From contig CP092879.1 of assembly GCA_030710605.1 (NCBI GenBank), positions 41,845,008 through 41,909,007 of the forward strand: a stretch of 64,000 nucleotides of DNA, read 5' to 3'. The stretch comes from Cordylochernes scorpioides. Lineage: Eukaryota > Arthropoda > Arachnida > Pseudoscorpiones > Chernetidae. Every line of letters starts with the position of its first letter. Position 1 is the first letter of the stretch. Positions 26,795 to 51,454 of this stretch are shown here, in pieces. The position numbers and the translations under genes were made by a program. The notes beneath the pieces were generated by a model. It did no database searches and had not been told where the DNA came from. It saw nothing but the letters and a program-made list of their open reading frames with translations.

Positions 26795-26874
26795 TATATA
26801 TGTTATATATAAAAAAGAGATTTTCTGCTGTTTTTTATTGTTATTTATATAGCATTATTAACTGTTACTTGATT

Positions 26875-28617: not shown

Positions 28618-29046
28618 CAGGGTGATCCAAAAGTCCCGCACAACTTTAAAAATTAATAACTCCGCGAATATTTGCGCTAGAGCAATGCGGTAAACACCAT
28701 TGTGTTCAGGTTGCAATGGGATTTTTTATGGCAAATAATGAAAAATTCGAAATTGATTTTAGTTACAACTTTATTCGCTAGATGGCGCTCTACCAGAATC
28801 AGATATTCAGCGGCCAAATTGTTTGATAAATTGAAAAATATAACTGAACGACACGTATTTTTCCTTTTTGAATACCAGGAAAGAACCCTAATAATATCAA
28901 ATGATAAATTAATAAAACACCATTTCGCCAAAAGTTAGAAGAATTGGTTGACGATTTTTAAATACAATCTGAGATATGTAAAATAGGTATATGCAAATTA
29001 AAACATGTAGCAAAAAATATTTATAAAATATTTAGATGGAGTTTTG
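28618..29046. repeat. Composite copy 1, left long terminal inverted repeat
   Basis: About 429 bp, matching inverted 37769-38201 and also both ends of composite copy 2. Includes 'ctccgcgaatatttgcgcta', 'tagatggcgctctaccagaa' and 'cagcggccaaattg', and ends near 'gagttttg'. Open frames inside it on both strands are shadows of the repeat. Confidence 0.85.
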
Positions 29047-29652
29047 TGAAATAAATTGAATGTTTGAAAATAACTACTGATATCAATACACGATTTTTGA
29101 AATGTTAATATAGTACCAATAATTATGATGGCACTATTAATAGGATTTCGTGCTAAAAGGAATGTATAGTTTCTTGACTAATTGTCGACACTTGACTATT
29201 TAACTGGATATTTGTCATGATCCAACAAATGAAATATAGAGGGGAGTGACAAAATATATTTGTCGTACTTTATTCCAAATATCCTATGGGTTTGTCAAAT
29301 GTTATCATTGTTTATTATACTGCACATAATTTTGAAAATGTATCCCCTAAAAAAAATCATTTTTAAATCGACCTTTTGCGTTGAAAAACGTGGTAGTAAA
29401 ATCATTTTGTAATATTTTTTGCGCAAAACATCTAAATTTGGGGGGGAGATACAGAGATTATTCCTTATGCTATTTCTTCTAATGAGCAAAAAGCGATAAA
29501 CTAAACATAAGGGGTAAAATTGTGTATACCAGTGTTATTCGAGAAGTTATAACACTTTGGCCTGCACGACATAATATAAGATGTGGGCAAATGACAAACA
29601 AAATAATTACTGTTTACAGAAAAAAAGAGTCAAGTTGTGAGGACAGCATTTA

Positions 29653-30824
29653 TTATTCCCATAACCCAAAACAAAGAGCTGCAAAATATAACACATGAGG
29701 TAACTGCCTTCTCTCTTGTATTAGGTCACAATCCTTGCTCAATGTGGCGCCCTTCATTCTCAAACACCGCCTGCAGACGATAGATGACAGAATGGTCACA
29801 ATTAAATAGTTGAAATTTATAAAAACGTGCCATCTGATAGAAGCCTTCAACATGGCCAATGTGGTAGGCCAGCATCGATAAAAACTCGAGTTAATGTACC
29901 CCCATAACCGAAATTGTAAGGCGTCAAATCTGGTGATATTGGGGGCCACTGGTATATAAAGTGGCGACTTATCAACGAATTCCACCGAACGTATCCTTCA
30001 GCAATTGTTTGGCACCGCGGGAGATATGAGGAGGTCCTCCATCTTGCATGAATGTTATTTCGCTTAGTGCTTGTCTGTCCTGCAATATGGGAATAACCTT
30101 TTCTCTCAAAAGTTGAACATAACGTTCACCAGTTACAAAAACGGTTTTGAAAGTTCTTCCATTGATTTTTTAAAAGAAAAATGGCCCAATAATAAAAGAA
30201 GAAGTGAACCCACACAAAACTGTAACTCTGTGCTGATGAAGTGGTATTTCTGTAAAAATCCTAGGGTTTTCTATTACCAAAATGAGGCAGTTTTGAATGT
30301 TAAATACCTCCTTTAGATAAAAGTGAGCATCATCTCTTCTTAGAACATTTGACAGCCAGTTTTCATCAATATCAATTTGCCGGAAAACCCATGCAGCGAA
30401 TTCTTGACGCAAAATCGCTGACTTTCAACTCGTGAAAACTTTGAATTTTGTTAGGATATTTTTATAGAAAAATTCTAAATGTGTGTTCTCTCCAAACTGT
30501 TCCATACGAAATCCCCGTTTGTCGAGAAACTTGTTTAGCACTTACTTCTCCATACGTGGATAACGTTTCAATAGCTTCAGCATTCTGCAAAATCGTAACA
30601 GCCACTGACTTGCATGTCGATGGTCTTCCACTCCGAGGTTTTGCTTCCAGAGATCCAGTTTCCTCAAAACTTTTAATCAATCGCTTTAGAGAGTAGCAAC
30701 TCATTGGTCCTTTACCACTTCGAATATCTTTAAAGGAACGAAACGCTCGTAAAGCTTCAGTGGCAGATTCTGAATCACAATTTAAAAAATTCACCAAGAG
30801 TGCTTTATCCTGTAGTGACGGCAT
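29653..30824 (-). pseudogene. DUF4817-type Tc1/mariner-superfamily transposase, broken
   Basis: The start codon is at 30824 and the frame opens MPSLQDKALLVNFLNCDSES; this ATG lies inside the LINE target duplication. N-terminal helix-turn-helix (KRLIKSFEETGSLEAKPRSG, then RPST; residues about 40-70) and ISYGTVWR are typical of the DUF4817 family. After frameshifts near 30460 the catalytic domain follows: RRDDAHFYLKEVFNIQN (first Asp region, about 30325), VPLH-type PLHQHRVTVLCG (about 30230), MQDGGPPHISRGAKQ (second Asp, about 30035), and a degraded third motif SPDLTPYNF near 29935, where copy 2 has TPCDF. Several stops make it inactive. An upstream extension of the open frame into LINE sequence (to 30947) is not native. 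Confidence 0.82.
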
Positions 30825-30829
30825 TCCAG
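30820..30829. repeat. LINE-I target-site duplication, 5' side
   Basis: GGCATTCCAG, identical to 37620-37629 after the LINE 3' end. Its reverse complement contains the transposase ATG. Confidence 0.9.
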
Positions 30830-32981
30830 GGGGAAGGGGAGAAGTTCGACCACACCTCCTTGCGGTCCCCCCTGGACCCTTGGAATATTTGACCAAATTC
30901 TGGTTCGTTTCCAAGATGACTAACGTTGCAACGGCACCCATTTTCAAATGAAGAACAAAACTGATATCTCCAGTAATGCTACCGCGTCCGGGGTAACCGC
31001 CGCGTCAGGAGCTGCAGCTCGAGCTCATGATGAGAAATCTACTAAGAGGACACATTTCAATCTACTACAACTCAATATAAATGGTACCCAGAGGAAAATA
31101 AAGAGCTGACTTGTCTTCTTTGTGACAACAATGTACATATTAATTGTCCTCAGGAGACAAAATTGAATCAGAATCTGAGATTCAATATCAAAGATTATAC
31201 AAAACTACGAATGGACAGACCGGGAAAATTCGGAGGAGGACTTGCCGTTTTGATAAGGAAATTAAGGAAATCGCCTATAATCAGAGTAAGCCTAGAGAAA
31301 GCACGACAGAAGCTCAGGCAATAGAAATCTATATTACAGATAAACAATTCCAATCATAAATGTTTATCACCACGATAATACTAGCATCAATACAGGCCTG
31401 ATAGAGACATTAAGTGAAGCGTCTTCGGATATCGCAATCATACTTGGTGATTTTAACGCCGAAAGACCAACTTGGGGATCACCTGTCCAGGATAACAAAG
31501 GTCAGCAGGTTGAGGACATGCTAACCGACCTCGACCTTACACCGTTAAATAACGAAAAGAACACTTATCTCTTCAAGTCCACAGGCACAGAATCCGCAAT
31601 AGACATCACAGCGATAAATTACAACATCGCACCCACAACACAATGGAAAATTCTGAAAAGTGCAATCAGTGACCACAGACCAATTTTAACAACCCTAAAA
31701 TTCAAAATTGAGAATTTCCAACAGAATAAAAAACACTGGAAAAAATTTCACAGAAAAGCTTGAAGAACTGTGCAACAACGATGAATTAAATCAATGAACG
31801 ATTGACAAAAACTTGGAAAATTATCTTTTAACATATCCAAAGCTGCAAAAGTATCGATACCTAGAGGTAGACGTAAAGACCTGTGAATACTTTACTGGAA
31901 GGACCACAATATCGAGGCAATGATTGCAGAGAGAGACAATAAAAATGAACTTCTTAAAACAAATAAAACAGAAGAAATCATAAAGAACTCATTGAATTTG
32001 TCACAAAATAGAACAAGAAATTTGGATATTCAAACAAGAAAAATGGGCAGAATTCTGCGAAGAAAATGGATCCAAAAAAAAGAAAGCCATCACTGGAATA
32101 TAATTAGTGTTATTAAACTCAAAACCAACACTAATCCTTCAATACTCTAACCGATATGAACAGCGAAAACGAACAAACAGATGGCTGACATAATTTCTGA
32201 ATATCTTTAAGCACTTCCAGACTCAGCTATACGAATGAAGGCAGGACTCTAAAAAATAATATAAACAAGTTAGTTAACAAGCAAGAAATTACCATCAACA
32301 AGATATTTACTCGAGAGACTTCACACTGAATGAGCTAAATTCATCAATAGGAAAGTTAAATCCAAGATGTCACCTGGAGATGCTCTAATCTTTGGTCAAA
32401 TGATTAAACACTTTGGAGACGAAGCTAAAAATCAACTCCTACGAATACTGAACATTTCATCGCAAACTGGTGAACTACCAAAGAATTGGAAGATATCAAT
32501 TGTAGTGCCAATACTGAAACCAAACAAAGATGCTAAGGAATGCAAGAACTATCGGCCAATTGCTCTTACCAGCATACTTTGTAAAATAACAGAATGAATT
32601 ATCCACTCTAGGCTCATAGTCTGGCTCACTAACAATAATAAAATAAACTTCTACCAAACTGCCTAAAGATCCAGACACTGTACAACTGATAAACTGTTCT
32701 ACTTCTGTCAATCAATAATAGATTTCTAGGAAAAACCGCCAAAGAAGACAACGGCCGTATTCCTGGATATGACCTCAGCTTTTGTTCGAGTGTAGAAATT
32801 ATTTGAAAGGCTTCACAACATCGGAGTAAGAGGAAAAACCTTAATCTGGATTGCAGACTTCTCAAGGGGAAGAAGGATAAAGGTTCGGGTCAATAGAACA
32901 TTTTCCAAGGACCGAAGAACATGGGCTGGTGTACCTCAGGGATCTGTGCTCAGTCCTCTACTCTTCTCGCTATATATTAAC
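30830..32981 (+). pseudogene. LINE-I ORF2 remnant (endonuclease and RT), copy 1
   Basis: I-like non-LTR retrotransposon inserted in the transposase start. 30830-30947 is a G+C-richer leader; a likely start ATG is at 30948 (MKNKTDISSNATASGV). The apurinic-endonuclease-type domain follows with FNLLQLNINGT (about 31045), FGGGLAVLIR (about 31230) and GDFNAERPTWGS (about 31450). The reverse transcriptase begins near 32340 with the palm approach PKNWKISIVVPILKPNKDAK and NYRPIALTS, and reaches GVPQGSVLSPLLFSLYIN at 32935-32980. It is cut there by the Gypsy 5' LTR before the catalytic YADD box. Many stops and frameshifts. The rest of ORF2 is missing on the far side of the Gypsy element. Confidence 0.85.
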
Positions 32982-33120
32982 TGTTGTTTATGTAAATAGA
33001 TGAATATTATTTGTATTATTTAAAGCCTCATTATGTAAAAATATATGTGTATATAAATTGGACATTTGTTGTTGGCCATGGTCAAGTTTGAGCTCTTGTA
33101 TGTCTAATTACGACACAACA
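32982..33120 (+). repeat. Gypsy 5' LTR
   Basis: 139 bp, starting TGTTGTTTATG and ending GACACAACA (TGTTGT/ACAACA short inverted repeat). It shares 'atgtaaatagatgaa', 'ttaaagcctcattatgtaa' and 'tgtgtatataaattggacat' with the 3' LTR. A TATA-like 'tgtatataaat' is present. Confidence 0.85.
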
Positions 33121-33124
33121 AAAG

Positions 33125-33140
33125 TGGCGACGAGGATGCG
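33125..33140 (+). promoter_or_regulatory. Putative primer-binding site
   Basis: TGGCGACGAGGATGCG begins four bases after the 5' LTR. 'TGGCGACGAGG' in this place is common in invertebrate Ty3/Gypsy elements. I do not assign the tRNA. Confidence 0.6.
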
Positions 33141-33315
33141 CGATCTACAGAGCCAGTAAAAAGCTGAGGAAAACGGTGTCTATGCAAGTATAACAGCTAC
33201 ATCTTTTAAACAAATCTGACTCTCGGATTATGGAGAGGAAAAATAGGAAAATGGGTTAAGATTACATCTTTTTAATTATCTGAATCAAGAAAACAAAGGA
33301 GTAGAAAAGATCAGC

Positions 33316-34085
33316 ATGACAAGTTCAAAGTTAATAATACCTTTTAGATGCTATAGCCCAGTGGAGGACACTTCGATCTTTTTGTACAAAAATTTGAGGC
33401 TTTCTTTTTGGCATCTGAAGGAGGAGATTAAAGTGCTGATTTTTACCTCGCTACCAGATTCTGAAACTTTGAAGCAGGGAAACGTCATTTTCTTCCTGGT
33501 CCAATGAATGATCAACCCTATGATACTATCATTCAAAGAATTAAACTGCATTTGGATCCAAGGAAGAAAGTGATACCACAGCGATGCAGATTTTTAAAGA
33601 GAATTCAACAGGAAGGAGAATCAATTTCGGAATATCTTAGAGAATTGAAACATTTGGCAATAAATTGTAATTTCGTCGATATGTTGGGAACCATTATGCG
33701 AGACCGTTTTGTGGCTGGAATCAAGTCGGAAATCCTGCAAAAGAAGCTACTACAAGAGGACGACGATGTCACCCCCGGATAAAGTTTTTTGCAGTGGCGA
33801 TCTCGTTCGAATTGGCGGAGATAAATACAAGAGAATTACAAGATAAATTAGTGGCCAAGATATCCCCTGTGAATTGAAAGGATAAAAAGGGCGAGTACAA
33901 TAATAGTACGGTGCAGTATAGGCCTTTCAGGCAAAGTGGCAAAGGCAAAATAGTGTGTTATAGATGTGGTGAAAGACATTCACACGTGGAATCTGTTTTA
34001 CCTCATAGAACAAAGACTTGTTTTAAAATGTAATAAACTGGGTCATTTAAGTAGGGTCTGCAAAGCTAGTAAAAGAATGTGGGGA
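33316..34085 (+). pseudogene. Gypsy gag remnant with zinc knuckle
   Basis: Capsid-like retrotransposon gag signals in shifted frames: FDLFVQKFEAFFLASE (about 33368-33420), then PYDTIIQRIKLHLDPRKKV and FLKRIQQEGESISEYLRELK (33510-33660), typical of the Retrotrans_gag family. A double zinc-knuckle region follows at 33955-34080 with CYRCGERHSH and CNKLGHLSRVC in two frames. At least three frameshifts or stops break it. Confidence 0.75.
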
Positions 34086-34445
34086 TGTAAATTTGTACAC
34101 GAGGACTCTATATATTCTGTACAGGACAAAACTGATGCCACAATAAATTTAACAGTAGATGATTATTCTTTGTGCTTAACAATAGATACAGGAAGTCCAG
34201 TTACGTTAATACCCAAAGATATTTATAAGAATTATTGGCAAGGTAAAAATTATTTCCAACAAATATAAGATTAAAATCCTTTTGTGGTAAATCAATAGAG
34301 ATTATAGATCAAAGAAATGTTTTTGTAAAAGAAGCCAACCAATATTTACGATTAATAGTTGTAAATGAAAAAATCCAGGTAATTTTATTAGGAAGAGAAT
34401 GGCTTAAACAGTTGAAACTTGATTATTCTATATTGTTTAGCATTT
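34086..34445 (+). pseudogene. Gypsy aspartic protease remnant
   Basis: LCLTIDTGSPVTLIPKDIY at about 34170-34230 carries the DTG active-site triplet of retropepsins. The flap/C-terminal half with ILLGREWLKQL follows in another frame near 34385. It normally cuts the Gag-Pol polyprotein inside the particle. Broken by a stop near 34268. Confidence 0.75.
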
Positions 34446-34469
34446 TAAAATTTTAAATAATGAATATAA

Positions 34470-35440
34470 TAGAAATATATTTAAATATATAAAAATTTGA
34501 TGGTAGGTATGCAGATTTGTTTAACAAAGATTTGGGCTGTCTAAAGGACGTTGGAATAAATTTTAATTTAAAAAAGGATGTGACTCCTGTGTTTTGTAAG
34601 GCCAGAAGTTTACCTTTCTCTCCAAAAAACAAAGTAGAGAATGAAATTGATCGTTTAATGAATTCTTGCATTTTATAACCTATAGTTGATGCATATTGGA
34701 CCGCTCCAATAGTACCGGCATCAAAAAAGGATGGTAGTGTAAGGATATGTGGTGATTTTAGATTACAGCTAATAAAGCAATAGAATTAGATAGGTATTCC
34801 ATTCCATCGATCGATGAGATCTTTTCAAAATTATCTACAAGCACCGTACTTTCGACTCTAGACCTATCACAGGCTTACTTACAAGTAATGTTAGCGGAAG
34901 AAGCCAAAGCTGTTGTTGATATAAACACAAAAAAGAGGTTGTTTTCTTATAAAAGACTATCATATGACGTAGCGATAGCACCAAATAAATTTCAGAGGTT
35001 ATGGAAGGCCTATTTTCTGATTTCCCAGGTGTGGCCTGCTACATAGATGATATTTTGGTTGCAGGAAAAGATTTTGAAGATCATGAACAAAAGTTGGATC
35101 TAGTGTTTAGATGATTGCTAGAAAAAGGTTTAAAGTTAAACAGATATAAATGTAAATTTAAAAAGTAATCGGTGGAATTTTTAGGGTTTAAAATGGATAA
35201 ATATGGACTGCATCCCTTATAAAATAAAGTTAAAGCAGTGATAGAGGCGCCTGAACCTAAAGAATGTTTCGCAATTGAGATCTTTCATAGGACTCTTAAT
35301 TTATTATTATAGATTCATAAAGAATATAACAAACATTTTAGCGCTATTCTATCAACTTTTGAATAAAAATTGTAGATAGAATTGGACGAAAGAATATCGT
35401 ATGTTATTTAAAAAATGTAAATCATTATTAATGGACTATG
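34470..35440 (+). pseudogene. Gypsy reverse transcriptase remnant
   Basis: Visible blocks: VTPVFCKARSLPFSPKNKVE (about 34580), YWTAPIVPASKKDGSVRICG (34695), the first catalytic block STLDLSQAYLQV (34850), KRLSYDVAIAPNKFQ (34955) and the YIDDILVAG box (35040). The box itself is intact although the frame is repeatedly interrupted. The connection region FIKNI (35310) marks the end of the RT. Confidence 0.8.
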
Positions 35441-35830
35441 GACTATTATGGACTAGGCGTAATTCTGAGTCATATAAATGATAGAAAGGAAGAATGCCCT
35501 ATAGCTTTTGCTTCTAGAACATTAACTGAAGCGAAAAAAACGTTTCTCTCAACTAGAAAAGAAAGCGTTGAGCATAACTTATTGCGTTGAGAAATTCAGA
35601 CAATACTTACTGGAACGAAAATTTGTATTGGTCACAGACAACCGACCCTTAATTCATATATTTTCACCTCAGAAACCAATTCCCATATGTGCATCATCCA
35701 GAATTAAAAGATGGTCCTTGAAATTAGCTGCATTTAATTATACTGTGGAATTTCCCAAAAACTAGTGATAATTCCAATGTTGACGCATTGTCACGTCTTC
35801 CTTTAGATTCGAGTGTCAGGGAGTCTCTTG
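35440..35830 (+). pseudogene. Gypsy RNase H remnant
   Basis: CPIAFASRTLTEAKKT (about 35490), then KRKALSITYCVEKFRQYL-type sequence and VLVTDNRPLIHIFSP (35620). WSLKLAAFNYTVEF closes the domain. It is followed by the DALSRLPL motif (about 35785) that ends RNase H in Ty3/Gypsy polyproteins. Stops and frameshifts present. Confidence 0.78.
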
Positions 35831-37097
35831 ATGAAGACCGGGGTACTTCTTCTCAGGAAGTTGAATGAGGTACCGTTCTCTTTCAGGGAGGTGGCATATG
35901 AGACGTCCCGAGATAAAATACTGTCTATAGTATTAAGGAATGTTAGAGAAGGCAACTGTGTGTGTGGAAATTCACAAGGGTACTGAGGGAAAACCCACTA
36001 GCTCCTTATTATAAGATCAATGAGGAATTAAGTTTGGAGTTTGATTGTTTTCAATGGCGTGAAAGAGTGGTGATTCCCCAAAAATTAAGATCTTTAATTT
36101 TAAATGACTTGCATGAAATACACATGGGGATTGTTAAAATGAAGATGATTGCCAGACGGTATTTTCTGGTGGCCAGGCATAGACAGTAACATCGAGGAGT
36201 TAACTAGAGAATGTAGAGTATGCCAAGAATCGGCAAGCATGCCCCCAGCTACCATCTCGGAATGGACTTGGCCCGAAAAACCGTGGCATCGACTTCATCT
36301 TGATCTAGCGGGTTCGTTCATGGGAAGAATGTTTTTGGTTCTCGTGGACGTATACTCAAAGTGGATAGAAATTTTTATCATCAAAGATATTACCAGAAAA
36401 ACGATTATAAGTCATCTTAGAGAAATTCTCGCCAGAATTGGAATTCCCTAATATTTTGTTACAGATAACGGAAGACAGTTTGTCTCCGGTGAATTCGAGC
36501 AATTTACCAAAATGAATGGTATACGGCACACTAAGACCAGTCCGTATAATCCTAGTTACAAATGGTTTAGCTGAGAGATATGTAAGAGAGTTTAAAAACC
36601 TTTTGAGAAAGAATAACGGGAAGGATGATTTAGAGACGAATCTACAAAGTTTCCTATTTGCTCATAGAGCATTCCCCCAAACTGTAATAAAGGAATTCCC
36701 CGGCGGAACTGCTAATGTAAAGAAGTTTAAGATCAAGATTCTCGAATTTAATACCAATATGAGAAATCCGCGAGAGGTATTTTATGAGGCCGTAAGAAGG
36801 CAGGAGCAGTTTACTACAGGTTGCGAGGTTTATTTCCGCAACTATGCAACTGGACCTAAACGGTAAAAATGTACCATTTTGGAATTATTGAGCTACCGTC
36901 ACTACCTTATAAGTTGCGAGGGCGTCGTGTATAAGAGGCATATCAATCAATTGCGACCTGTGAGAAAGAAACAAGTGGAGACAAGAAATTTGATACTTCC
37001 TCGAACATCAGGAGAGAAGCCTGTAGGTGGAAGTCAGAAATAAAGTGAAGAGGAGGTTCCAGAGGTTACATCAGGAAACAAGGAGGAGACTGCTTCT

Positions 37098-37391
37098 GTG
37101 CACGTACCCTCTTGCACTCCTATACCAGGGCCTGTTGCTGTGCACGTGCCCTCTTGCACTCCTATACCAGGGCCTGCTGCTGTGCACGTGCCCTCTTGCA
37201 CTCCTATACCAGGGCCTGTTGCTGTGCACGTGCCCTCTTGCACTCCTATACCAGGGCCTGCTGCTGTGCACGTGCCCTCTTGCACTCCTATACCAGGGCC
37301 TGTTGCTGTGCACGTGCCCTCTTGCACTCCTATACCAGGGCCTGCTGCTGTGCACGTGCCCTCTTGCACTCCTAAACCGGAGGCTGCCGCT
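37098..37391 (+). repeat. In-frame 42-bp minisatellite in the integrase tail
   Basis: Seven units of VHVPSCTPIPGPxA, where x alternates V, A, V, A, V, A, so the true period is 84 bp (28 residues). The units are almost identical; the last turns into PKPEAAA. Because 42 is a multiple of 3, five of the six frames stay open here; only the + frame continuous with the integrase and the RPQRARKP motif is meaningful. Confidence 0.9.
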
Positions 37392-37463
37392 GTGCAAGTG
37401 CCCGTCCGCAGTCCTAGACCTCAGAGAGCCAGGAAACCCCTAGACCGACTTGAGTATTATCAA

Positions 37464-37474
37464 GAGGGGAGATG
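37464..37474 (+). promoter_or_regulatory. Polypurine tract
   Basis: Purine-rich AAGAGGGGAGA-type stretch directly before the 3' LTR start at 37475, the expected plus-strand primer. Confidence 0.7.
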
Positions 37475-37580
37475 TGTTGTGTATGTAAATAGATGAAGAT
37501 TATTTGCATTCTTTAAAGTCTCATTATGTAAGAATATATGTGTATATAAATTGGACATTTTTTGTTGGCCAAACGAAAAG
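37475..37580 (+). repeat. Gypsy 3' LTR, truncated
   Basis: TGTTGTGTATGTAAATAGATG onward matches the first two thirds of the 5' LTR with scattered differences, up to 'ttgttggcca'. The last third is absent and replaced by the LINE-I tail. Confidence 0.8.
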
Positions 37581-37582
37581 AA

Positions 37583-37619
37583 TCTGAGGCTCTTTATTGG
37601 ACACGACAAATACAACAAC
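37583..37619 (+). mobile_element. LINE-I 3' terminus, copy 1
   Basis: 'tctgaggctctttattggac' 'acgacaaatacaacaac' matches the LINE-I ends at 10670-10704, 54480-54512 and 40989-41030 (-). It is followed at once by the second GGCATTCCAG. Confidence 0.85.
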
Positions 37620-37629
37620 GGCATTCCAG
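37620..37629. repeat. LINE-I target-site duplication, 3' side
   Basis: GGCATTCCAG, partner of 30820-30829. Confidence 0.9.
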
Positions 37630-37768
37630 AAAAAAAATAAATCATCAGAGATAGATAAATATTTTTCAAGTGAATTAAAATAAATATAATCGATACTGAG
37701 AGAAAGTTGAATTTAAAAAAAATAGAAAATTATTATTTTCGAAATTTAAAAAGCTGAGAGGATTCCAG
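37630..37768. other. Transposon 5' flank upstream of the transposase start
   Basis: About 140 bp that belong between the transposase ATG and the right terminal repeat. They are matched, inverted, at 40865-40978 in copy 2 with small indels and substitutions. A transposase promoter would be expected here or in the terminal repeat. Confidence 0.7.
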
Positions 37769-38201
37769 CAAACCGCATCTAAAATATCTTTTTTTTTTTT
37801 TTTTTTGGCTACATGTTTAAATTTGCATATACCTATTTTACATATCTCAGATTGTATTTAAAAATCGTTAACCATTTCTTCTAACTTTTGGCGAAATGGT
37901 GTTTTATTAATTTATCATTTGATATTATTAGGGTTCTTTCCTGGTATTCAAAAAGTAAAAATACGTGTCGTTCAGTTATATTTTTCAATTTATCAAACAA
38001 TTTGGCCGCTGAATCGCTGATTCTGGTAGGGCGCCATCTAGCGAATAAAGTTGTAACTAAAATCAATTTCGAATTTTTCATTAGTTGCCATAAAAAATCC
38101 CATTGCATCCTGAACACAATGGTGTTTACCGCATTGCTCTAGCGCAAATATTCGCGGAGTTATTAATTTTTAAAGTTGTGCGGAACTTTTGGATCACCCT
38201 G
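37769..38201. repeat. Composite copy 1, right long terminal inverted repeat
   Basis: Inverse of 28618-29046. A T-run of about 18 at 37790-37806 is a local expansion of a shorter A/T tract in the other three copies. Confidence 0.85.
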
Positions 38202-38203
38202 TA

Positions 38204-40438: not shown

Positions 40439-40864
40439 CAGGGTGATCCAAAAGTCCCGCACAACTTTAAAAATTCATAACTCCGCGAATATTTGCGCTA
40501 GAGCAATGCGGTAAACACCATTGTGTTCAGGATGCAATGGGATTTTTTATGGCAAATAATGAAAAATTCGAAATTGATTTTAGTTACAATTTTATTCGCC
40601 AGATGGCGCTCTACCAGAATCAGAGATTCAGCGGCCAAATTGTTTGATAAATTGAAAAATATAACTGATCGACACGTATTTTTCCTTTTTGAATACCAGG
40701 AAAGAACCCTAATAATATCAAATAACAAATTAATAAAACACCACTTCACCAAAAGTATGAAGAATTGGTTAACGATTTTCAAATACAATCAGAGATATGT
40801 AAAATAGGTAAATGCAAATTAAAACATGTAGCAAAAATAAAATTGATATTTTAGATACGGTTTG
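40439..40864. repeat. Composite copy 2, left long terminal inverted repeat
   Basis: About 426 bp, inverse of 51029-51452 and about 95 % identical by eye to the copy 1 repeats. Confidence 0.85.
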
Positions 40865-40978
40865 TTTCCGAAGATAATAAATTTCTAATATTTTTAATTA
40901 AACTCTCACTCAGTATAGATTATATTTATTTTAATTCATTTGAAAAATATGTATCTATCTCTGATAATTTATTTTACT

Positions 40979-40988
40979 CTGGAATGCC
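40979..40988. repeat. LINE-I target duplication in copy 2 (3' side)
   Basis: CTGGAATGCC, the reverse complement of GGCATTCCAG, at exactly the same LINE/transposon junction as 37620-37629. The 5' partner is lost in the 49.6-kb deletion. Confidence 0.85.
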
Positions 40989-41784
40989 GTTGTTGTTGTC
41001 GTGTTCAATAAAGAGCCTCAGATGTATCCATGCATTTCCATCACAGCAGCAGCAATGTCCACTATCTTGGGTGTGTAAAGCTGCTGCTCAGGGTCTATGT
41101 CAAATTTCTGCAAGGCTGCGGCCATTGCTAGCTATGAGAATATGTGGGTAGGTGTAAGTTCCATACCAGGACAATTGTTGCATGCCCTATAGGTTATTGT
41201 GTCATCTGGATGTATTGTCATTCCTTTATAGTGTTTTGTTCTAAGTCTTGTTATAGTTTTTGTCATTTTTCTCTCAGAGTTTATTTCGCATTTTAATCTT
41301 TTGTTATTTTTTTGTTTAATTATCTTGTATTTTGACAAAGAACCAGCGTCAAATAATGACATTTGTTCTTTCCTTTGGCTCAACTTTCTGGCTTCCTTTG
41401 CCAATTCAAAAGCCATTTCATTACCCCCGATCCCAGCATGGGCAGGGATTCAATGTAGAATGCAGTTATTCTCCAATGGTAACAGTTGGGTAAGTAACGA
41501 GTGTATTTTCTGTGTGATTTTAGTATTGCCCTTCTGAATTGCTTCTAGAGCGGATATGGAGTCGCTGTATATTAAAATTCCTTCTGCTTGATGCAGGGAT
41601 GTTTGGTTAAGGCATACATCAAGGGCTTTCCAGATAGCTGTCAGTTCACAAGTGAAGTTTGACGAAATCTGTCCTGCTCCTTCTTTGATTTTGATGTTTG
41701 TTCCATCTTGCAGTATTATGTTAATTCCGGCCCCTCCATTACTCAGGGTAAGGTCTGAAGATCCATCTGTATATGCTGTTAAAG
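40989..41784 (-). pseudogene. LINE-I RNase H domain and 3' UTR, copy 2
   Basis: On the reverse strand: PLTAYTDGSSDLTLSNGGAG (first catalytic Asp, about 41770), NFTCELTAIWKALDVCL (Glu, about 41640), GILIYSDSISALEAIQKG (Asp, about 41560) and AHAGIGGNEMAFELAKEARK (His/Asp-like end, about 41440). The usual Asp of GNExAD is Phe here (GNEMAF). The protein runs on to about 41132 with NNCPGMELTPTHIFS, then the 3' UTR ends at the CAACAAC repeat at 40989. Frames are broken near 41450. This part of the LINE is missing from copy 1. Confidence 0.8.
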
Positions 41785-44612
41785 GGCGTGGCCTAGCATT
41801 TTTAATCAAGAATTTGTACTATGAGGACATAGTCGTTAATATTACAAACACATTAGACCTCGAAGCCCAAGGTATCAAAGTCTATCTCAATCAAAACAAA
41901 GCCATCAACATATACAATATGTATCACCCTCCAAACAATACATTTATTGACGATGGAACAATGGCTCAATTTCTTACAGACAACACTATTATTGTAGGTG
42001 ACCTTAATGCCAAACATCAACTATGGGGATGTTCTACGCCAAACCCAAGAGGCAAAATACTATCAAACATATTTGACGACAATGCCTTCATGTGCTTAAA
42101 TGATGGGAATCCTTCCCATCATTCCTACAAGCTATAATACTGCACAAGCCCTTGATATAAGTTTTTACCCTCCTGACATTTTCCACAAATGCAAATAGCA
42201 AATATTAAAAAGTTTTGGAAGTGATCATTTGCCTAATTTGATAGAAATTAGCACCAAGACCAAAACTAGCTCAATTAAGAAAAATTCTGGAACTTCAAAA
42301 AGGCTAATATGATATCTTTCGAAAACACCATTAATAAAGCAGCCAAAGTATTAATACCAAGAGATAATATTAAGAAATGGATTCCAAAATATACACACCA
42401 GGCAAAAAATATTCAAACACTTATAACTAAAAGAAATGAACTACAAAAATGTGCACCCAAAACCAAACAAATTGTAGAACTGAACTGAACATTGTGATTG
42501 CAAAAATAAAAAGATTATACGTAAATATGAAAAGGGGAAAATGGAAACAAACTTGTGAAAACCTGAACCCAAGAAACCCAAATACAAAACTTTGGAATTT
42601 GGCAAAACAAATTGACAGAGTCCAGCCACAAACTGAAAACACAAATATGATTAAGAATATAGATGGTACACCAGCAACTAATGACAAAATTGCTGCCAAT
42701 CTTTTAGGTAATTCATATCAAATAAGTAGTAAAATCAAGGTTGAAAAAAGGCCCGAAAGATTATTCATGACTGTAAAAATGTCACCAGCACTCATAATAT
42801 TTTCCATGAAAAAAATCAATATGAAAGAGCTAGCTTATGCATTAGAAAACATTGATCTAAACAAGACTCCTGGGCCAGATGGAATCCATGGCCGAATGAT
42901 ATCAAACTTGGACAAAATTGGCAAAGAAAGACTTCTTAATATTTTCAATAACTCCTGGAAAACTGGAAAATTGCCTCAAGACTGTAAAAATGCAACAATA
43001 ATTCCCATTAAAAAACTTGACAAATCTGCTGATGACCCAAAAGAACTACCGACCTATCTCCCTCACAAGTTTTTGCTGCAAATTAATGGAAATTATTATA
43101 CTCAGACGACTCACCTACCACCCCGACACAAGAAATCTCTTTCCAGAAGAACAATATGGATTTAGGAAAGGACATGGTACAATAGATCAACTCCTTTTTT
43201 TCACACAAAAGGTAAAAGATGCACAAAACAAAAAACCAACTAACCACACCATAGCTGCTTTTTAGACCTTACACAAGCTTTTGATAAGGTATGGAAAAAC
43301 AAGTTAATTACAAATTATACAAACATTTCAAAATTGATGGAAAAGCTATCACTTGGATAAATGATTCCCTTAAAAATATATAAATCAGGGTCAAATATAA
43401 TGGCACTCTATCTAAAACCTTCAAATTGTACCAAGGATTACCACAAGGATCAATCCTTAGCCCAACTCATTTCACCCTATTTATTGCAGGCATAGAAGAA
43501 ATTTTTCACATAAAACCAATATTGGACTTTTCGCTGATGACATTTTTCTATGGAGCAGCAACACTAACTGGAAAAAAAGCTGAAAGAGATTTGAACAAGA
43601 CTCTTCTCCGCCTAGAAAAAAAATGCTAATAAACATAAATTAGAATTTAACCCCCAAAAATCTGAAACCTGTCTTTTTACTACCGATAAGAAACTGTACA
43701 AAATAAGACCAAATATTATTCTGAAAGAACAACAATTGCAATATAATAAACATCCTAAATATCTCGGCTACACCCTGGATCCAGAAATTAACTCCAGTAA
43801 GCATATTGAAGGAGTTGTTAGAAAAGGAAGAGACCGACTAAAAATCTTGAAATATATTTCAGGAAGAGTGGGGAGCTAAAGCAACAACACTAAAATTAAC
43901 TTACACATCTCTAATGAGACCTATCTTGGAATATGGATATCAAATCTATGGTACAGCATCAGAAACAAATCTAAAAACACTGGAAAGGATACAACTAAAT
44001 GCAGCTAGAATTATTGCAGGTCTTCGAAAAACCTGCCCTAATAATATTGTACTTTACGAGGCAGACATTATGCCCTTAAAGGATAGAATAAGCTACAATC
44101 TGCCAAAATATATAAACAAAATCAAGAGTTATGAAAACAAACACAGAACTTTCAATTACATACGTACTTAATGGGGAACCCAATATAAGACTCAAAAAAG
44201 AAGGCCCTCTCCACCTGGCCAATAGAAATGGATTTTTAAAATATAAAGTGGAAAAATATTATTTAGCTGAAAAAATATCTCCATGCGAACCACTAACAAA
44301 ATGTTATTTTTAATGCCACTTTAAATGAACCCTCCAACAGACAATACCAAAATCCAGAATACTTAAAACAATTATCATTAGAAATAATTAATAAAATTCC
44401 TAAAAATGCAATAACTATCTATACCGATGGTAGCAAAGACGAGTTGGGACACACTGGCAGTGGCTCTCTAATTAAAACCACAAATGGCAATGAGAAAATA
44501 AACAGAAGAAACCCAGAATTTTGCTCAGTCTTCAGATCAGAACTTATAGCCATCTATGAAGTCTTAAAATCCATCAGAAAAATTAAACATCACGATATAT
44601 GGATTCTTACTG
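41785..44612 (+). pseudogene. LINE-I2: I-like LINE remnant (endonuclease, RT, partial RNase H)
   Basis: Second I-like subfamily, inserted in LINE-I in the opposite direction and 5'-truncated in the endonuclease. Blocks in order: KGRGLAFLIKNLYYEDI (41785), IIVGDLNAKHQLWGCSTPNP (41990), RT approach LNKTPGPDGIHGRMISN (42858), RPISLTSF (43045, shifted), EEQYGFRKGHGTIDQLLFFT (43147), FLDLTQAFDKVW (43262), YQGLPQGSILSPTHFTLF (43428), LFADDIFLWS (43527, catalytic box intact), thumb HPKYLGYTLDPE (43752) and LMRPILEYGYQIYGTASETN (43910), RNase H ITIYTDGSKDELGHTGSG (44412) and FRSELIAIYEVLKSI (44530). It stops after HHDIWILTE, where LINE-R begins. About six frame breaks. Confidence 0.82.
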
Positions 44613-47074
44613 AAACACCACCTCCCAGACAACGTGTCTGGAAGGATTTCAATACCGGTGGCCTTTAATCATAGCAAAATAGGAAACTATCTACTGTGTC
44701 CAGCAGGGACCGCGGGGAGGCAGCCCCCAGTCGACTCTGTTCACTCACAGCTGAGGAAAAGCTCAGCTGCCACGTCGTGGGCTTTCTCAAGAAGCTTGCT
44801 GTGATTTCTCAGCAGCTAACTCTCGATCGCGCCCCTCGCCCTCCTTCTCTCTTCCTGCACACCCACTACCCTTGGACAATCCAAGACGTAGTGGCGTGCA
44901 TTCACATCCCTTTCTCCATAGACGCAATCAGGGTTTCTCTTAATTTTAAATCTGTGGAGACTTGGAGAAGAGCCCATGTCCCGAACTACCCTAATGAGTT
45001 TGTGGGACATTACCTTACAGAGGTACTTGGGTGTTGTTACCCCATTGAATACCTCTCTCCCCTTCACACTGTTCCTCCATCTGTCCAACCATAAGTCCTG
45101 GACGTGCCCCCTGATCCTCCTATAAACTACTTTCTTGGTCACAGGGGTCCTCAGTGATCTACCTCTAAAGCATCCTGCCTTAGCGATCCTGTCTGCGAAC
45201 TCATTACCTTCGATGAGGCTGTGTCTCCTAAACCAAGGGAGCTCCGGAGCCCGCGTCATCATCTCCAGCTCCTGGATTATTTGATGTGCGAGTTGCTCTT
45301 TCTCCAGATTGATGGCGACGAGGGCCGACATACAATCTGAATAGAGGCGGTCCGGGCTGTAGTTCTTCTCGGCACACACTCTGAGGGCTACCCTGATCGC
45401 AACCAGCTCGGCTGAAAAGACCAATTCGTCCACTCTGAGTGTTAAACTTTCTTGGAAGATCAGCTCTCCATTAGTGAATATCACTACCCCAGCTTCAGTA
45501 TTGGTTCCAGACTTACTACAATCAGTGAAAACCTCCGTGCCAATCCCTGTCGGCCCTCCAAGACTCCAATTCCACTTTGGCAACCACTGCGGAGGCTTCC
45601 TTGGATCCCTCTTCGATTCCAGGGCCCCCGCTTCAAGTCCCAGGGCATCTTCCCTGTTCTCCCAGATCTTCTGTCTGACGGTCTCCTCCTCTAGTTTCAA
45701 TCCCAGGGGAATAAGCCCAGCGAGGACCAAAAAGGCCTCACTGCTGCTAGTGCGATATCCTCCTGTGATTCTGAGTGCCGCTGTCCTCTGCACTCTTTCT
45801 AGAGTTGTTGCCACCTTCTGATCCCTGTTTCGGCGCCACCAAGCCCCGGAAGCATATAGCAAGATTGACTCGACACAGGAGAGGTAGAGATTCCTAAAAA
45901 TAGTACCCTCCTCCCCCCCCCCTGTTGAGAGCCAACCAGGACAGGCCTGCAGAACGCCTCCCTGCCTCTCGCCACCATCTCCTCCTCCGCCTGGTATTGT
46001 CAACCCATCTTGTCATCAATGACCACCCCCAGGATGGTCATCCTATTGACCAACGCTACCCTCCGTCCTTCCATCCGGATAGCCGGCTTGTGTTTCCATT
46101 TGATCCCTTTCCTTTTAGTTCTTATGTCCCTAGGCTTAAAGCTGAGGGCTTTAGTTTTGGAGACATTGAACTTAAGGCCAGTCATGGGCCCAGATCGAGA
46201 GAATTTGGAGAGAAGTTTCAACACACTTCTCAGCCTTCGCTCTCAAAGCAGCCTCAATGATGAGGAACTGGTCGTCAGAATAGAGAACCAGCCTGGCTAC
46301 CCCAGGGAGTTCCTCCTGGAAAACGGTGTTTACCAGGATATTCTACAGAATAGGTCCGCAGCAAGAGCCCTGGGGGCAACCCCTAGCACAGTTTCTTTCC
46401 AACTTCCGCCCACCAAAACTGAGGCTAATCCGTCTATCCCTCAGGAAGTCACGAACCAAGCTGCACAAATTATCAGGACAACCCATGTCCATCAAATTTC
46501 TCATCAGCTTGTTCCAGCTCATGGAGTTGAACGCACCATCAATGTCCATGGCCACGAAAAGAACCCAAGCACCCTTATTTAAGCCCATCTCAACCCCCTC
46601 TAACACTTCGTTCAGAGCTGTGGTTGTGGACTTCCCTTCCCTAAAACCATGTTGGAAAAAGGAAAGGAGCTCATTACTCTCTAGCCAATGCTTCAGTCGC
46701 TGAGCTAGTAGGCTATCCAGGACCATACCTAGACACACTAGTAAAGAAAGCGGACGATAATCATTAGGAGAATTACCCTTTCTACCAGACTTTTCGAGAA
46801 GCACTACTCGGGCAACCTTCCATGCCTCAGGAAATGTACCAGTGTCCAGGCACCGATTGAATAACCTGGAAAGAAGCGATGGGTGCATCCTTACCAGGGC
46901 TTTCACGACGGTGTTGTCGATCCCTTCGGGACCAGGAGATTTCCTTTTCCCGAACTTGAAAGCCGTCAGTTTCACCTCATTCTCAGAAAAGGGCGGATCT
47001 ACCATACCACAAGTGGTCAGAGAGATCTCGTCCTCTGGTTCCTCGTTTCCGAAGTGCCGATCCAAGTTGTTTTT
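44613..47074 (-). pseudogene. LINE-R: R1/LOA-like LINE with RNase H, 5'-truncated
   Basis: Read leftwards from 47074. RT: KRKSPGPEGIDNTVV (about 46945), SPNDYRPLSLLVC (46765), QHGFREGKSTTTALNEVLEG (46660), FVAMDIDGAFNSMSW (46560, catalytic Asp), CARGCPQGSCCGPIL (46385). After a frameshift comes YSDDQFLIIE (46285), where Ser-Asp-Asp replaces the usual Ala-Asp-Asp. A 395-codon open frame (46003-44816) then holds the thumb (YLSCVESILLYASGAW), RNase H (VFTDCSKSGTNTEAGVV, FSAELVAIRVAL, LYSDCMSALVAI, IEGNEFADRIAKAG) and a terminal zinc-like cluster with one Cys changed (PDCVYGERD...HYVLDC). The 3' UTR runs to about 44613. Its G+C content is clearly higher than that of the I-like LINEs around it. 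Confidence 0.83.
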
Positions 47075-47405
47075 ATTTTGTCTTCTGCTTTCGAGCGAGT
47101 AGGTCTAGAACACATTCTCTCTGAATTTTCTCATTGTTGGTGGATGAAAGAGCACCAGTGATTATTTTGGCCGCTTTTGCTTGAACACTGTCTAGTCTTA
47201 CTTTTAGTGATGAGCTTGAGGGAGCCCAGACCGGTGTTGCATATTCCATTATCGGCCTTATTAAGAAGGTGGTATATGTTGTTCTGAGAATTCTGGGTTT
47301 GCTCCCCAATTTGTTCCACATAGCCTTCTCAGAATGTTTAGTTTTCTGATAGCTCTATTTGAGGTGCTAATTATGTGTTCTGAAAATTCCAATTCCTCAT
47401 CAATA
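47075..47405 (-). pseudogene. LINE-I thumb region, distal part (copy 2)
   Basis: Continues the LINE-I protein after repeat M: DEELEFSEHIISTSNRAIRK (about 47395-47335), then LIRPIMEYATPVWAPSSSS (about 47265) and VQAKAAKIITGALSSTNNEK, ending RECVLDLLARKQKTK where LINE-R starts. Confidence 0.78.
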
Positions 47406-47673
47406 ATAATTAAAATAATTTCGTTGACATCTTGTCAATACATGCACAGTCTGCACTATTAAAAAAAGATAATATGCATTATATACACTATGTACAATGA
47501 ATATGGCGCCTCTGCCAGCGCTGCAGAATTTGGTGGAGAATCGCCAGTGGGTCTCCAGCGACACCACGCAAATTGCGATCTACGATGAATACGTAGATCG
47601 CGTACTTTTCCGCTTAGGAGATGGTGATGGCGTGGTCCTCGAGACCAACTGGAAAGATCCAGGCCTGCAGTAT
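47406..47673 (+). mobile_element. Repeat M copy 2, inserted in LINE-I
   Basis: About 268 bp that interrupts the LINE-I thumb between YLGVI (47690) and DEELEF (47395). It starts 'aattaaaataattt', then the palindrome TTGACATCTTGTCAA. A 61-codon open frame at 47497-47682 (MNMAPLPALQNLVENRQWVS...) shares its first 31 or so residues with copy 1 at 14235-14336 without a frameshift. GCGATCTACG / CGTAGATCGC at 47575-47601 forms a 10-bp hairpin. No domain recognised; neither a tRNA-like head nor terminal inverted repeats are obvious. Confidence 0.6.
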
Positions 47674-49577
47674 CACACCTAGGTATTATGGATTTCTAAT
47701 TTTATCAATTATTTGTTTGTTTATGCTTATTTTGTGGTTATATTTATGCTTCTTTTCCCTGTGAGTGGAGAAGACGCATAGGTTTGGTTTTATTGGGTTT
47801 ATGGTCATTTGGAGTTCCATTGCCCACTTCTCCAGTCCTCTCATTGATGTGTTCAGTATTTTTTACGATTTTTCTATGCTGCTACTTGTGTGCCATATGG
47901 GTATATCATCTGCATAACAGGCAACCTTTGTGCCTTCAGTGAGGTAAGGATGGATGTCGTTAATATATAGCAGATAGAGTAGAGGACTGAGCACAGATCC
48001 CTGAGTTACACCAGCCCATGTTCTTCCTTCCTTGGAAAATTCTCCATTGACCCGAACCTTTAACCTTCTTCCCCTTAAGAAGTCTGCAATCCAGATTAAG
48101 GTTTTTCCTCTTACTCCGATGTTGTGCAGCTTTTCACGTAATTTCTCCCTCCACACTCGATCAAAAGCTGAGGTCATATCAAGGAATATAGCCGTGGTCT
48201 TCTTTGGCGGTTTTTCCTGGAATGAATTTATTATTGATTGACAGAAGTAGAACAGTTGATCAGTCGTACAGTGCTGGGATCTATAGGCAGTTTGGTAGAG
48301 GTTTATTTTATTATTGTTAGTGAGCCAGACTATGAGCCTAGAGTGGATAATTCGTTCTGGTATTTTACAAAGTATGCGGGTGAGAGCAATTGGCCGATAG
48401 TTCTTGTATTCCTTGGCATCTTTGTTTGGCTTCAGTATTGGCACTATAATTGATATCTTCCAATTCTTTGGTAGTTTACCAGTTTGCCATGAAATGTTCA
48501 GTATTCGTAGGAGTTGATTATTAGCTTTGTCTTCAAAGTGTTTAATCATTTGACCAAAGATTAGATTATCTCTTGGTGACCTCTTGGATTTTTTTATTGA
48601 TAAGTTTAGCTCATTCAGTGTGAAGTCTCTCGAGAAAATATCTTGTTGATGGAAGTTTCTTGCATGTTTAACTAACTGGTTTATATTATTTTTAGAGTCC
48701 TGTCTTCATTCGTATAGTTGAGTATGGAAGTGCTTAAAATATATTCAGCAATTATGTCAGCCATCTGTTTGTTCTCGTTCTCGCTGTTCTATTCATATCG
48801 GTTAGAGTATTGGAGGATTGGTGTTGGTTTTGATTGTTCTCTAACACTCTAATCATATTCCAGTGTTGGCTGTCCTTTCTTGGATCCATTTTTTCGCAGA
48901 ATTCTGCCATTTTTCTTGTTCGCATATCCAAATTTCTTGTTCTATTTTGTGACTAATTTCAATGAGTTTCTTTCTGTTTTCTTCTGTTTTATTTTTTAAA
49001 GAAGTTCATTGATATTGTCTCTCTCTCTGAAATCATTGCCTCGATGTTGTGGTCCTTCCGGTAAGGTATCCACAGGTCTTTACGTCTACCTCTAGGTATC
49101 GATGCTTTTGCAGCTTTTGAAATGTTCGAAGCGAATTTTTCTAAGTTTTTGTCAAGCGTTCTGTAATTCAATTTTTGGTTGCACAGTTCTTCAAGATTTT
49201 CTGTGAATTTTTTTCAAGTCGGCTTTCCTAAAGCTCCATGTTCTTTTATTCTAATGGACATTCTCTATTTTGAAGTTTAGGGTTGTTAAAATTGGTCTGT
49301 GGTCACTGATTGCGCCTTTCGGGATTTTCCATTGTGTTGTGGGTGCGATGTTGTAATTTATCGCTGTGATGTCTATTGCGGATTCTGTGCCTGTGGACTT
49401 GGATAGATAGGTGTTCTTTCCTTTTTTAACGGTGTAAGGTCGAGGTCGTTTAGCATGTCCTCAACCTGCTGACTTTTGTTATCCTGGACAGATGATCCCC
49501 AAGTTGAACTTTTGGCGTTAAAATCGCCGTGTATGATTGTGATATCCGAAGAGGCTTCACTTAATGTCTCTATTGTG
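47674..49577 (-). pseudogene. LINE-I endonuclease and RT, copy 2
   Basis: Same LINE insertion as 30830-32981, on the reverse strand. Endonuclease: ITIIHGDFNAKSSTWGSSVQ (about 49530) and a stretch matching LDLTPLNNEKNTY of copy 1. RT in one 228-codon open frame (48549-47863): PKNWKISIIVPILKPNKDAK, YKNYRPIALTR, FLDMTSAFDRVW (catalytic Asp, about 48190), GVTQGSVLSPLLYLLYINDI (48010) and ACYADDIPIW (47910, intact catalytic box). Then MELQMTINPIKPNLCVFS and YLGVI before repeat M. It covers RT and thumb sequence missing from copy 1. About 93 % nucleotide identity to copy 1 by eye over the shared RT part. Confidence 0.85.
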
Positions 49578-49587
49578 TGCACCCATA

Positions 49588-50330
49588 CAAAATTCAAAGA
49601 TTTCACGAGCTGAAAGTTGGCGATTTTGAGATGCGTCAAGAATTCGCTGCATGGGTTTTCCGGCAAATTGATATTGATGAAAACTGGCTGTCGAATGTTC
49701 TGTGGACATATGATGCTAACTTTTCTCTAAACGGAGAATTTAACATTCAAAACAGCCGCATTTGGGCAACAGAAAACCCTAGGATTTTTACAGAAATGCC
49801 ACTTTACCAGCCTAGAGTTACAGTTTTGTGTGGGTTCACTTCTTTTATTATTGGGCCATTTTTCTTTGAAAAATCAATGGAAGAACTTTTAAAACCGTTT
49901 TTGTAACTGGTGAACGTTATGTTCAACTTTTGAGAGAAAAGGGTATTCCCATATTGCAGGGCAAAAGCACTAAGCGAAATAGCATTCATGAAAGATGGAG
50001 GACCTCCTCATATCTCCCGAGGTGCCAAACAATTGCTGAAGGATACGTTCGGTGAAAATCGTGTGATAAGTCGCCACCTTATATAACAGTGGCCTCCAAA
50101 ATCACCAGACTTGACGCCTTGCGATTTTTGTCTATGGGGGTACATTAAATCGTGTGTTTATCGATGCTGGCCTACCACATTGGCCATGTTGAAGGCTTCT
50201 ATCAGATGGCACGTTTTATCAATATCAACAGATATGTTATTTAATGCTGTCCATTCTGTCATTTATCGTCTGCAGGCGGTGATTGAGAATGAAGGGTGCC
50301 ACATTGAGCAAGGATTGTGACCTAATACAA
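49588..50330 (+). pseudogene. DUF4817-type transposase, N-terminally deleted (copy 2)
   Basis: Starts inside the protein at IQRFHELKVGDFEMRQEFAA because of the deletion at 49577-49588. Catalytic parts: WTYDANFSLNGEFNIQNSRI (first Asp region), ENPRIFTEMPLYQPRVTVLC, KDGGPPHISRGAKQLLKDTF (about 49990, in another frame; second Asp kept) and SPDLTPCDFCLWGYIKS (about 50105, third Asp present). The tail VIYRLQAVIENEGCHIEQGL ends at a stop at 50320. Frameshifts near 49905 and 50050. The DNA-binding N-terminus is missing, so it is inactive. Confidence 0.8.
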
Positions 50331-51028
50331 GAGATAAGGCAGTTACCTCATGTGTTATATAAGCCGCCATGTATTATATTATCTACCAATATTTTGCAGC
50401 TCTTTGTGTTGGGATATGGGGATAATAAATGCTGTCCTCACATCTTGACTCTTTTTTTTTTGTGAACAGTAATATTTTGTTTGTCATTTGCTCACATATT
50501 ATGTCGTGCAAACCAGAGTATTATAACTTCTCGAATAACACTGGTACGCACAATTTTTCCCCTTATGTTTAGTTTTCGCTTTTCGCTCATTAGAAGAAAT
50601 AGCATAAGGAATATTTTCTGTACACCAATAACTTTAGAAATTTTGTAAAAATAAAAATAATACAAAATGATTTTACTACCACGTTTTTCAACGCAAAAGG
50701 TCGATTTAAAAATTATTCTTATTTGAGGGGACATATATTTAAAATTGTGTACAGTATAATAAACAATAATAACATTTGACAAGCCCATAGGATATTTGGA
50801 ATAAAGTACGACAAATTTATTTTGTCACTCCCCTCTATATTTCATTTCTTGGATCATGACAAATATCCAGTTAAATAGTCAAGGGTCGCCAATCAGTCAA
50901 GAAACTACACATTTCTTATAGCAAGAAATCCTATTAATAGTGCCATCATAATTTTTGGTACTATATTAACATTTCAAAAATTCGTGTATTGATATCAGCA
51001 GTGTTTTTCAAACATTCAATCTATTTCA
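50331..51028. other. Transposon 3' flank, copy 2
   Basis: Non-coding sequence between transposase and terminal repeat. It matches 29047-29650 of copy 1 inverted over most of its length (for example 'cgttgaaaaacgtggtagta' on the copy 1 strand). Confidence 0.7.
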
Positions 51029-51452
51029 CAAAACCACATATAAAATATAAATATTTTTGCTACATGCTTTAATTTGCATTTACCTATTTTACATATCTCA
51101 GATTGTATTTGAAAATCGTTAACCAATTCTTCATACTTTTGGCGAAGTGGTGTTTTATTAATTTGTTATTTGATATTATTAGGGTTCTTTCCTGGTATTT
51201 AAAACGGAAAAATACGTGTCGATCAGTTATATTTTTCAATTTATCAAACAATTTGGCCGCTGAATCTCTGATTCTGGTAGAGCGCCATCTGGCGAATAAA
51301 ATTGGAACTAAAATCAATTTCGAATTTTTCATTATTTGCCATAAAAAATCCCATTGCATCCTGAATACAATGGTGTTTACCGCATTGCTCTAGCGCAAAT
51401 ATTCGCGGAGTTATTAATTTTTAAAATAGTGCGGGACTTTTGGATCACCCTG
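51029..51452. repeat. Composite copy 2, right long terminal inverted repeat
   Basis: Inverse of 40439-40864; ends 'gggacttttggatcaccctg' next to TA. Confidence 0.85.
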
Positions 51453-51454
51453 TA

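Follow-up and report, generated by a model that had tools for sequence, protein, structure and literature searches.

A retroelement-laden, long-TIR Tc1/mariner-type transposon that very probably spread as a whole unit in the genome of Cordylochernes scorpioides

Nests of transposable elements (TEs) in which retroelements lie inside a DNA transposon are mostly known as single dead loci. The window considered here, 64,000 bp of the Cordylochernes scorpioides assembly GCA_030710605.1 (contig CP092879.1, C17:41845008-41909007; A+T 66%; apparently eukaryotic, judging by its elements), holds two such nests, the composites c1 and c2, in each of which long interspersed nuclear element (LINE) sequence lies within a Tc1/mariner-type transposon bounded by terminal inverted repeats (TIRs). 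Unlike ordinary nests, these have been copied together with their outer TIRs. Comparison across the 2.62-Gb, 24-contig assembly indicates with high confidence that a retroelement-laden, long-TIR transposon of this type spread as a whole unit, its own transposase being dead and the enzyme probably acting in trans.

The closest known family, a likeness of described features rather than of compared transposase sequences, is the aphid LTIR-like DD40D/DD41D group (PMC5490172), which is likewise placed in Tc1/mariner. The consulted part of that paper gives TIRs of >460 bp (here ~400 bp plus a decayed inner stretch), a transposase of 351-370 aa (here 368 aa, in the intact relative L063) and an element length of 2.3-2.4 kb, against 9-11 kb for the composites. 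The tip sequence here differs from that of the aphid elements, and 42 residues separate the second and third D (L063 positions 261 and 304) instead of 40-41; the words 'nested' and 'inserted' are absent from the main text of the aphid paper. Among the non-autonomous mariners of Rhodnius prolixus (PMC4678618), a progenitor was amplified by an autonomous relative, as is proposed here, and long TIRs arose by rearrangement, but the consulted part of that report covers 13 sequences and mentions no retroelement cargo. Giant eukaryotic transposons (PMC6431247) are, like the present elements, large mobile units with cargo, and the main text of that review does not contain the word 'mariner'. In the open-access literature, partly covered and with subscription journals mostly outside that coverage, no recognised case was found in which a Tc1/mariner-type element had amplified a nest of retroelements as one unit. 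Nested insertion and trans-mobilisation are each known; as far as the literature was searched, the multiplication of a dead multi-retroelement nest of 9-11 kb to such a number is new.

The original prediction held that the same TA-flanked tips bound both composites and that the sequences outside are unrelated, and its coordinates proved exact. The tip CAGGGTGATCCAAAAGTYCCGC starts precisely at 28618, 38201, 40439 and 51452 and is preceded by TA every time; the 24-mer that includes the TA occurs four times in the window (<=3 mismatches) and never in shuffles. The exact tip 24-mer found no match in the viral or prokaryote contigs searched. The inverted repeats, ~405 bp of high identity followed by a decayed inner stretch of ~40 bp, are 97.3% identical within c1 and 96.0% within c2. 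Three inverted blocks are shared between the composites (28613-30451 = 51457-49587, 31401-32981 = 49573-47959 and 37582-38205 = 41023-40435), and the sequences outside the tips of c1 and c2 do not align. The opposite orientation of c1 and c2 within one 64-kb window, with a 100-N gap between them (40061-40160), might suggest that a segmental duplication or an assembly error produced both. However, this is extremely improbable given that homology ends at the tips and their TA, that neither composite contains an internal N gap, and that 41 left-TIR places lie on 19 of the 24 contigs in unlike flanks.

Far from being a pair, the composites recur at thousands of junction places in the genome, including the composites with the same LINE junction that had been sought. 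The left-TIR search scored the best 40 of 1,306 first-look candidates, near full length, together with one 46-base piece; the gypsy/LINE-3' and transposase/LINE junction searches were each scored for their best 40 places. Both inner junctions follow in order, 2.0 and 8.5-9.8 kb away, in 29 of the 40 scored left-TIR places (window included), and the left arm continues as in c1 to the end of the stretch in all 30 fetched loci (the other 29 besides the window at 95.6-99.1%). Three copies that were followed further agree with c1 over ~30346 to 38203, the exception being tandem-repeat units near 37211-37305. Every one of ten paired c1-type ends is flanked by TA within unlike flanks (12/12 with window c1 and c2). 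Left arms differ from their majority by 0.16-1.4% at 28 loci and by 2.2% and 2.9% at two, with a mean pairwise difference of 1.4% (435 pairs), and the older members L044 and L046 (~95%) have the same LINE and gypsy junctions. By pattern, the transposase/LINE junction is present at 2,166 places and the LINE/gypsy junction at 2,135, the reversed-pattern control giving 0 for both.

The order is not perfectly neat. Against it, at 11 of the 40 scored left-TIR places neither inner junction is among the 40 scored in the respective search, and 11/40 transposase/LINE and 11/40 gypsy/LINE-3' places lack a listed left end. Two of the former were looked at: L029/L045 show a solo long terminal repeat (LTR) at the same gypsy site, followed by an N gap, and L030 was read only to ~30538; among the 11 transposase/LINE places, the two that were read (L044, L046) have the same junctions at ~95%, the left TIR of L044 being broken. 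On contig C1, 35 of 100 listed exact 5' junctions have a listed exact gypsy junction downstream (conversely 35/63), a floor since mutated sites drop out. At the second to fourth places of the transposase/LINE pattern list, the left tip lies where expected, with TA, in 3/3. Beyond the gypsy site, all three retain some sequence of the LINE 3' half. There is thus a longer form of the LINE+gypsy nest, from which window c1 and its 28 listed partners seem to derive by a deletion that preceded their spread. As a separate observation, the c1-type elements L021 and L035 adjoin with only TATA between their tips.

The shared interior argues that the LINE, here LINE1, was inserted once and then copied with the transposon, as had been predicted. 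In c1 it is flanked by the 9-bp target-site duplication (TSD) GCATTCCAG, within which the transposase start codon lies. The LINE1 3' end ACAACAACG abuts GCATTCCAG in both composites, and the common flank that follows reaches the TIR after 173 bp in c1 and 141 bp in c2, whereas two other window copies of this 3' end (10705, 54513) have different flanks. The inner order of TIR, transposase, LINE and 3' junction stands for both composites, but the transposase/LINE 5' junction is visible only in c1, 949 bp across it being missing from c2, and the gypsy element and extra LINEs had gone unnoted. The cargo is also not the complete retrotransposon first supposed: LINE1 begins at 30830 with an apparent tail of open reading frame (ORF) 1, ending in a stop that shares bases with the following ATG (ATGA, 30948), and it is therefore read as probably 5'-truncated, and in c1 a gypsy element at 32982-37571 replaces most of its 3' half. 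With the endonuclease (EN) in the c1 part and reverse transcriptase (RT) and RNase H in the c2 parts, LINE1 combines EN, RT, RNase H, its own 3' end and a 9-bp TSD, features like those of the I group, a label that stems from the first sequence reading and not from a tree.

The gypsy element has paired LTRs with TG..CA, and its order of gag, RT and integrase fits, although gag (0.0031) and RT (4.8e-4) score below the cut-off and Integrase_H2C2 (3e-6) above it. Seven of 97 bases distinguish its two LTRs. Because all seven differences recur in 6/6 composites compared, the gypsy is old, passive cargo that aged in one ancestor before being copied. It also contains a tandem repeat (37090-37420; shifts of 42 and 84 bp), proline-rich in one frame, whose unit number varies among composites. 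Repeated, independent insertion of LINE and gypsy at hot spots within the transposon might be considered, as a different LINE lies ~65 bp upstream of the intact transposase of L063 (junction pattern at 71 places) and the upstream region has thus been struck more than once. However, the TSD, LINE start and gypsy site shared in the copies read, the same 13-bp filler at the c2 deletion and the seven recurrent LTR differences leave this explanation with almost no probability.

Inside c2, two extra LINEs are nested within LINE1, and the window copy is without 415 bp at 44612/44613 that L053/L054 retain. The ~265-bp insertion at 47404-47668 resembles a repeat at 14244-14444 (79%). Genome-wide, the c2 fusion-junction pattern (<=1 mismatch) and the LINE1/next-cargo junction pattern each occur at 1,801 places, with reversed controls of 0; the equal totals (900+901 and 908+893) are a coincidence. 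Two of the best c2-type copies match window 44612-51457 at 99.1%, nested LINEs included, plus the 415 bp absent from window c2, and their remaining parts match at 99.0-99.2% up to the far tip. At each of the first four entries in the one-mismatch list, the sequence begins at a TIR and continues into the nested LINEs, the far end having been read for one. Three c2-type elements for which both ends were read are 11,442, 11,430 and 11,432 bp long, with TA in 3/3 and different flanks, and 30 of 64 c2 junctions have the next-cargo junction in the listed part, again a floor. Counting every pattern place as a full unit of 9.4 or 11.4 kb, both types together are estimated at ~40 Mb, or 1.5% of the assembly.

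In copies read at both ends, the unit copied runs from TIR to TIR with TA outside, and these copies have no A-rich or repeat tail. This speaks against spread by a route independent of the TIRs, such as retrotransposition from a LINE promoter or gene conversion onto resident elements, which is accordingly an improbable alternative. In its favour, conversion probably does act on the arms: in the window TIRs, 14 columns unite the two ends of a composite and 0 unite like ends, and a set of 12 c1-type and 8 c2-type TIRs shows 10 columns with a fixed difference between types and 0 between left and right ends overall. Homogenisation is incomplete, left and right ends still differing at 8 columns in the c1 type and 3 in the c2 type. 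The arms were thus probably largely homogenised by gene conversion within each lineage after the split. Inner TIR copies of the tip, as in Sleeping Beauty, were rejected: the best score of 18 was reached by 124/500 shuffles for direct and 145/500 for inverted repeats. In addition, overlapping ORFs of 85-106 aa occur on both strands of all four window TIRs; the two tested gave no Pfam match. Coordinates of the composites and their parts are collected in Table 1.

Table 1. Features of composites c1 and c2 in window coordinates.
Feature	Position	Strand	Remarks
Composite c1	28618..38201	.	TA both sides (28616-28617, 38202-38203)
c1 left TIR	28618..29017	+	97.3% to 38206-37802
Decayed DUF4817-type Tc1/mariner transposase	29686..30825	-	Extent by similarity to L063/L064; frames broken
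LINE TSD, left copy GCATTCCAG, 9 bp	30821..30829	+	
LINE1: ORF1 tail, endonuclease, RT up to ..YIN	30830..32981	+	Exo_endo_phos_2 3.5e-21
Decayed Ty3/gypsy-type element	32982..37571	+	~97-bp LTRs (32982-33078, 37475-37571)
LINE1 3' end	37585..37620	+	Remainder of LINE1 3' half absent in c1
LINE TSD, right copy GCATTCCAG	37621..37629	+	
Transposase upstream region severed by LINE	37630..37802	-	Contiguous with transposase in LINE-free elements
c1 right TIR	37803..38201	-	
Composite c2	40439..51452	.	TA both sides
c2 TIR, LINE 3' side	40439..40863	+	
GCATTCCAG after LINE1 3' end in c2	40979..40987	-	
LINE1 3' half, RNase H and 3' end	40988..41783	-	RNase_H 4.3e-09
Third LINE, EN, RT and part of RNase H	41784..44612	+	Limits approximate; Exo_endo_phos_2 3.1e-12, RVT_1 1.2e-10, RNase_H 3.3e-05 (just below cut-off)
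Second LINE, RT and RNase H	44613..47066	-	Limits approximate; RVT_1 5.2e-19, RNase_H 4e-06
LINE1 of c2 (EN/RT)	47067..49573	-	RVT_1 2e-29; ~265-bp insertion at 47404-47668
13-bp filler at c2 deletion	49574..49586	.	Pattern across filler at 1,801 places genome-wide
c2 transposase remnant	49587..50361	+	N-terminal part deleted
c2 TIR, transposase side	51031..51452	-	

The transposase is broken in the c1-side arms that were read. One stop after the helix-turn-helix (HTH) is common to 30/30 c1-type arms, so the master elements were probably dead already, and in the c1 remnant DUF4817 scores 17.3 bits, below the cut-off of 22.6. A 121-aa transposase piece had no match in phages, and two transposase pieces matched no solved structure. 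Relatives with intact frames do exist. In a protein search in which the best 150 hits of 12,172 candidates were scored, 80 have a stop-free reading frame of 368 aa or more, and 51 share the same 421-aa open frame. L063 encodes an intact 368-aa transposase with DUF4817 at 31 bits, above the same cut-off, and matches Sleeping Beauty (1.7e-8) and SETMAR (0.0015) chains. It has the HTH plus DDD/E make-up of a Tc1/mariner transposase, whereas the c1 and c2 remnants are broken; its D164, D261 and D304 align with what we take to be the catalytic triad of Sleeping Beauty. The L063 tip equals the c1 tip over the 45 bases printed, and its arm is 88% identical. These findings agree with the prediction that the transposase came from elsewhere, and the best mechanism appears to be that intact relatives sharing these tips supplied the enzyme that moved c1 and c2 in trans.

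The nests could alternatively be autonomous, some copies still making a working transposase. The L063 nest, whose LINE differs from LINE1, keeps its 368-aa frame, and the 421-aa frame is common among the scored hits. However, with the c1-side arms broken in every one of the 30 read and the shared c2 deletion removing the N-terminal part of the transposase, autonomy is very unlikely. A head-to-head LINE acting as promoter for the transposase was also considered and rejected, LINE1 and the L063 LINE both seeming to start inside ORF1 and so to be without a 5' end. Between its TA-flanked tips the L063 copy is 14.3 kb long, and it terminates in a second transposase arm in inverted orientation. Of the 51 copies with the 421-aa frame, 8 found a match among 12 of the 71 L063-type junction places that were compared. 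The two exact L063-type junctions lie 91 kb apart on one contig (C10:61792876 and C10:61884141), the second belonging to an element of 14.3 kb that carries transposase arms, inverted to each other, at its two ends.

Empty elements, which had been sought as well, were recovered. A joined query with the LINE left out is spanned unbroken in 40/40 scored places at 86-90% identity, and the 27-mer LINE-free junction pattern occurs at no fewer than 856 places, a floor as the elements differ from the query. In six LINE-free loci read, the right TIR region is present and no long transposase frame was seen. A candidate pre-insertion site was found for one copy: the joined flanks of L004 resemble window 26656-26823 (83%), but the site is TA-rich and the number of TAs ambiguous.

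Several observations weigh against spread as a whole unit by an enzyme acting in trans. The LINE-free elements found reach only 86-90% identity with the query, and the six loci read are broken, so that the enzyme donor is only loosely constrained; L063, the sole copy with an intact transposase that was followed between both tips, is itself an unusual nest of 14.3 kb. Two further transposase lesions are each present in only 20 of the 30 arms. In L044 no more than 75 bp of the left TIR remain within the part read. The right tip was reached in 0/3 of the c1-type pattern places within the stretches read, these units being longer than expected, and at most of the pattern places, which run into thousands, both ends lie outside what was read.

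Trans-mobilised whole-unit spread would have begun when a single LINE insertion hit the transposase start codon of a long-TIR Tc1/mariner-type transposon, which went on being transposed with the LINE inside it. One line would then have gained a gypsy inside the LINE, a branch of it later losing the LINE 3' half (window c1), while another lost 949 bp of transposase and LINE and gained two more LINEs (c2). The units, with dead transposases, would have spread genome-wide as TIR-to-TIR pieces inserting at TA, the transposase presumably supplied in trans by intact relatives with the same tips, through cut-and-paste with copy gain during replication or repair. More tentatively, and with the odds somewhat against it, this long-TIR transposase family may have escaped the usual Tc1/mariner size limit, its masters being nests that gain cargo and act as a general carrier multiplying dead retroelements as DNA; by pattern, loaded forms account for ~3,900 junction places versus the floor of 856 for the empty form.

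Repeat annotation would assign the estimated ~40 Mb to LINE, gypsy and mariner fragments, each with a history of its own, although many of these LINE and gypsy copies would have been made by DNA transposition. Retroelement copy numbers and LTR ages would consequently be misread, the gypsy LTRs differing at 7/97 bases while the left arms differ by 1.4% on average. The elements are, besides, a naturally occurring case in which to study why loads of 9-11 kb are tolerated by a Tc1/mariner-type enzyme.

Outside the composites, the window contains two long palindromes, at 28122-28438 (94% self-complementary, ending 180 bp left of c1) and 24699-25025 (85%), and a further inverted repeat pair of ~1.3 kb (21710-23009 / 58636-59918, 87.9% identity). 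A minisatellite of ~17 units of 60 bp, with open frames on both strands, lies just outside c2 (51790-52805). In addition, a U6 small nuclear RNA match over the whole model length (26073-26183, minus strand, 54.2 bits) may represent a pseudogene.

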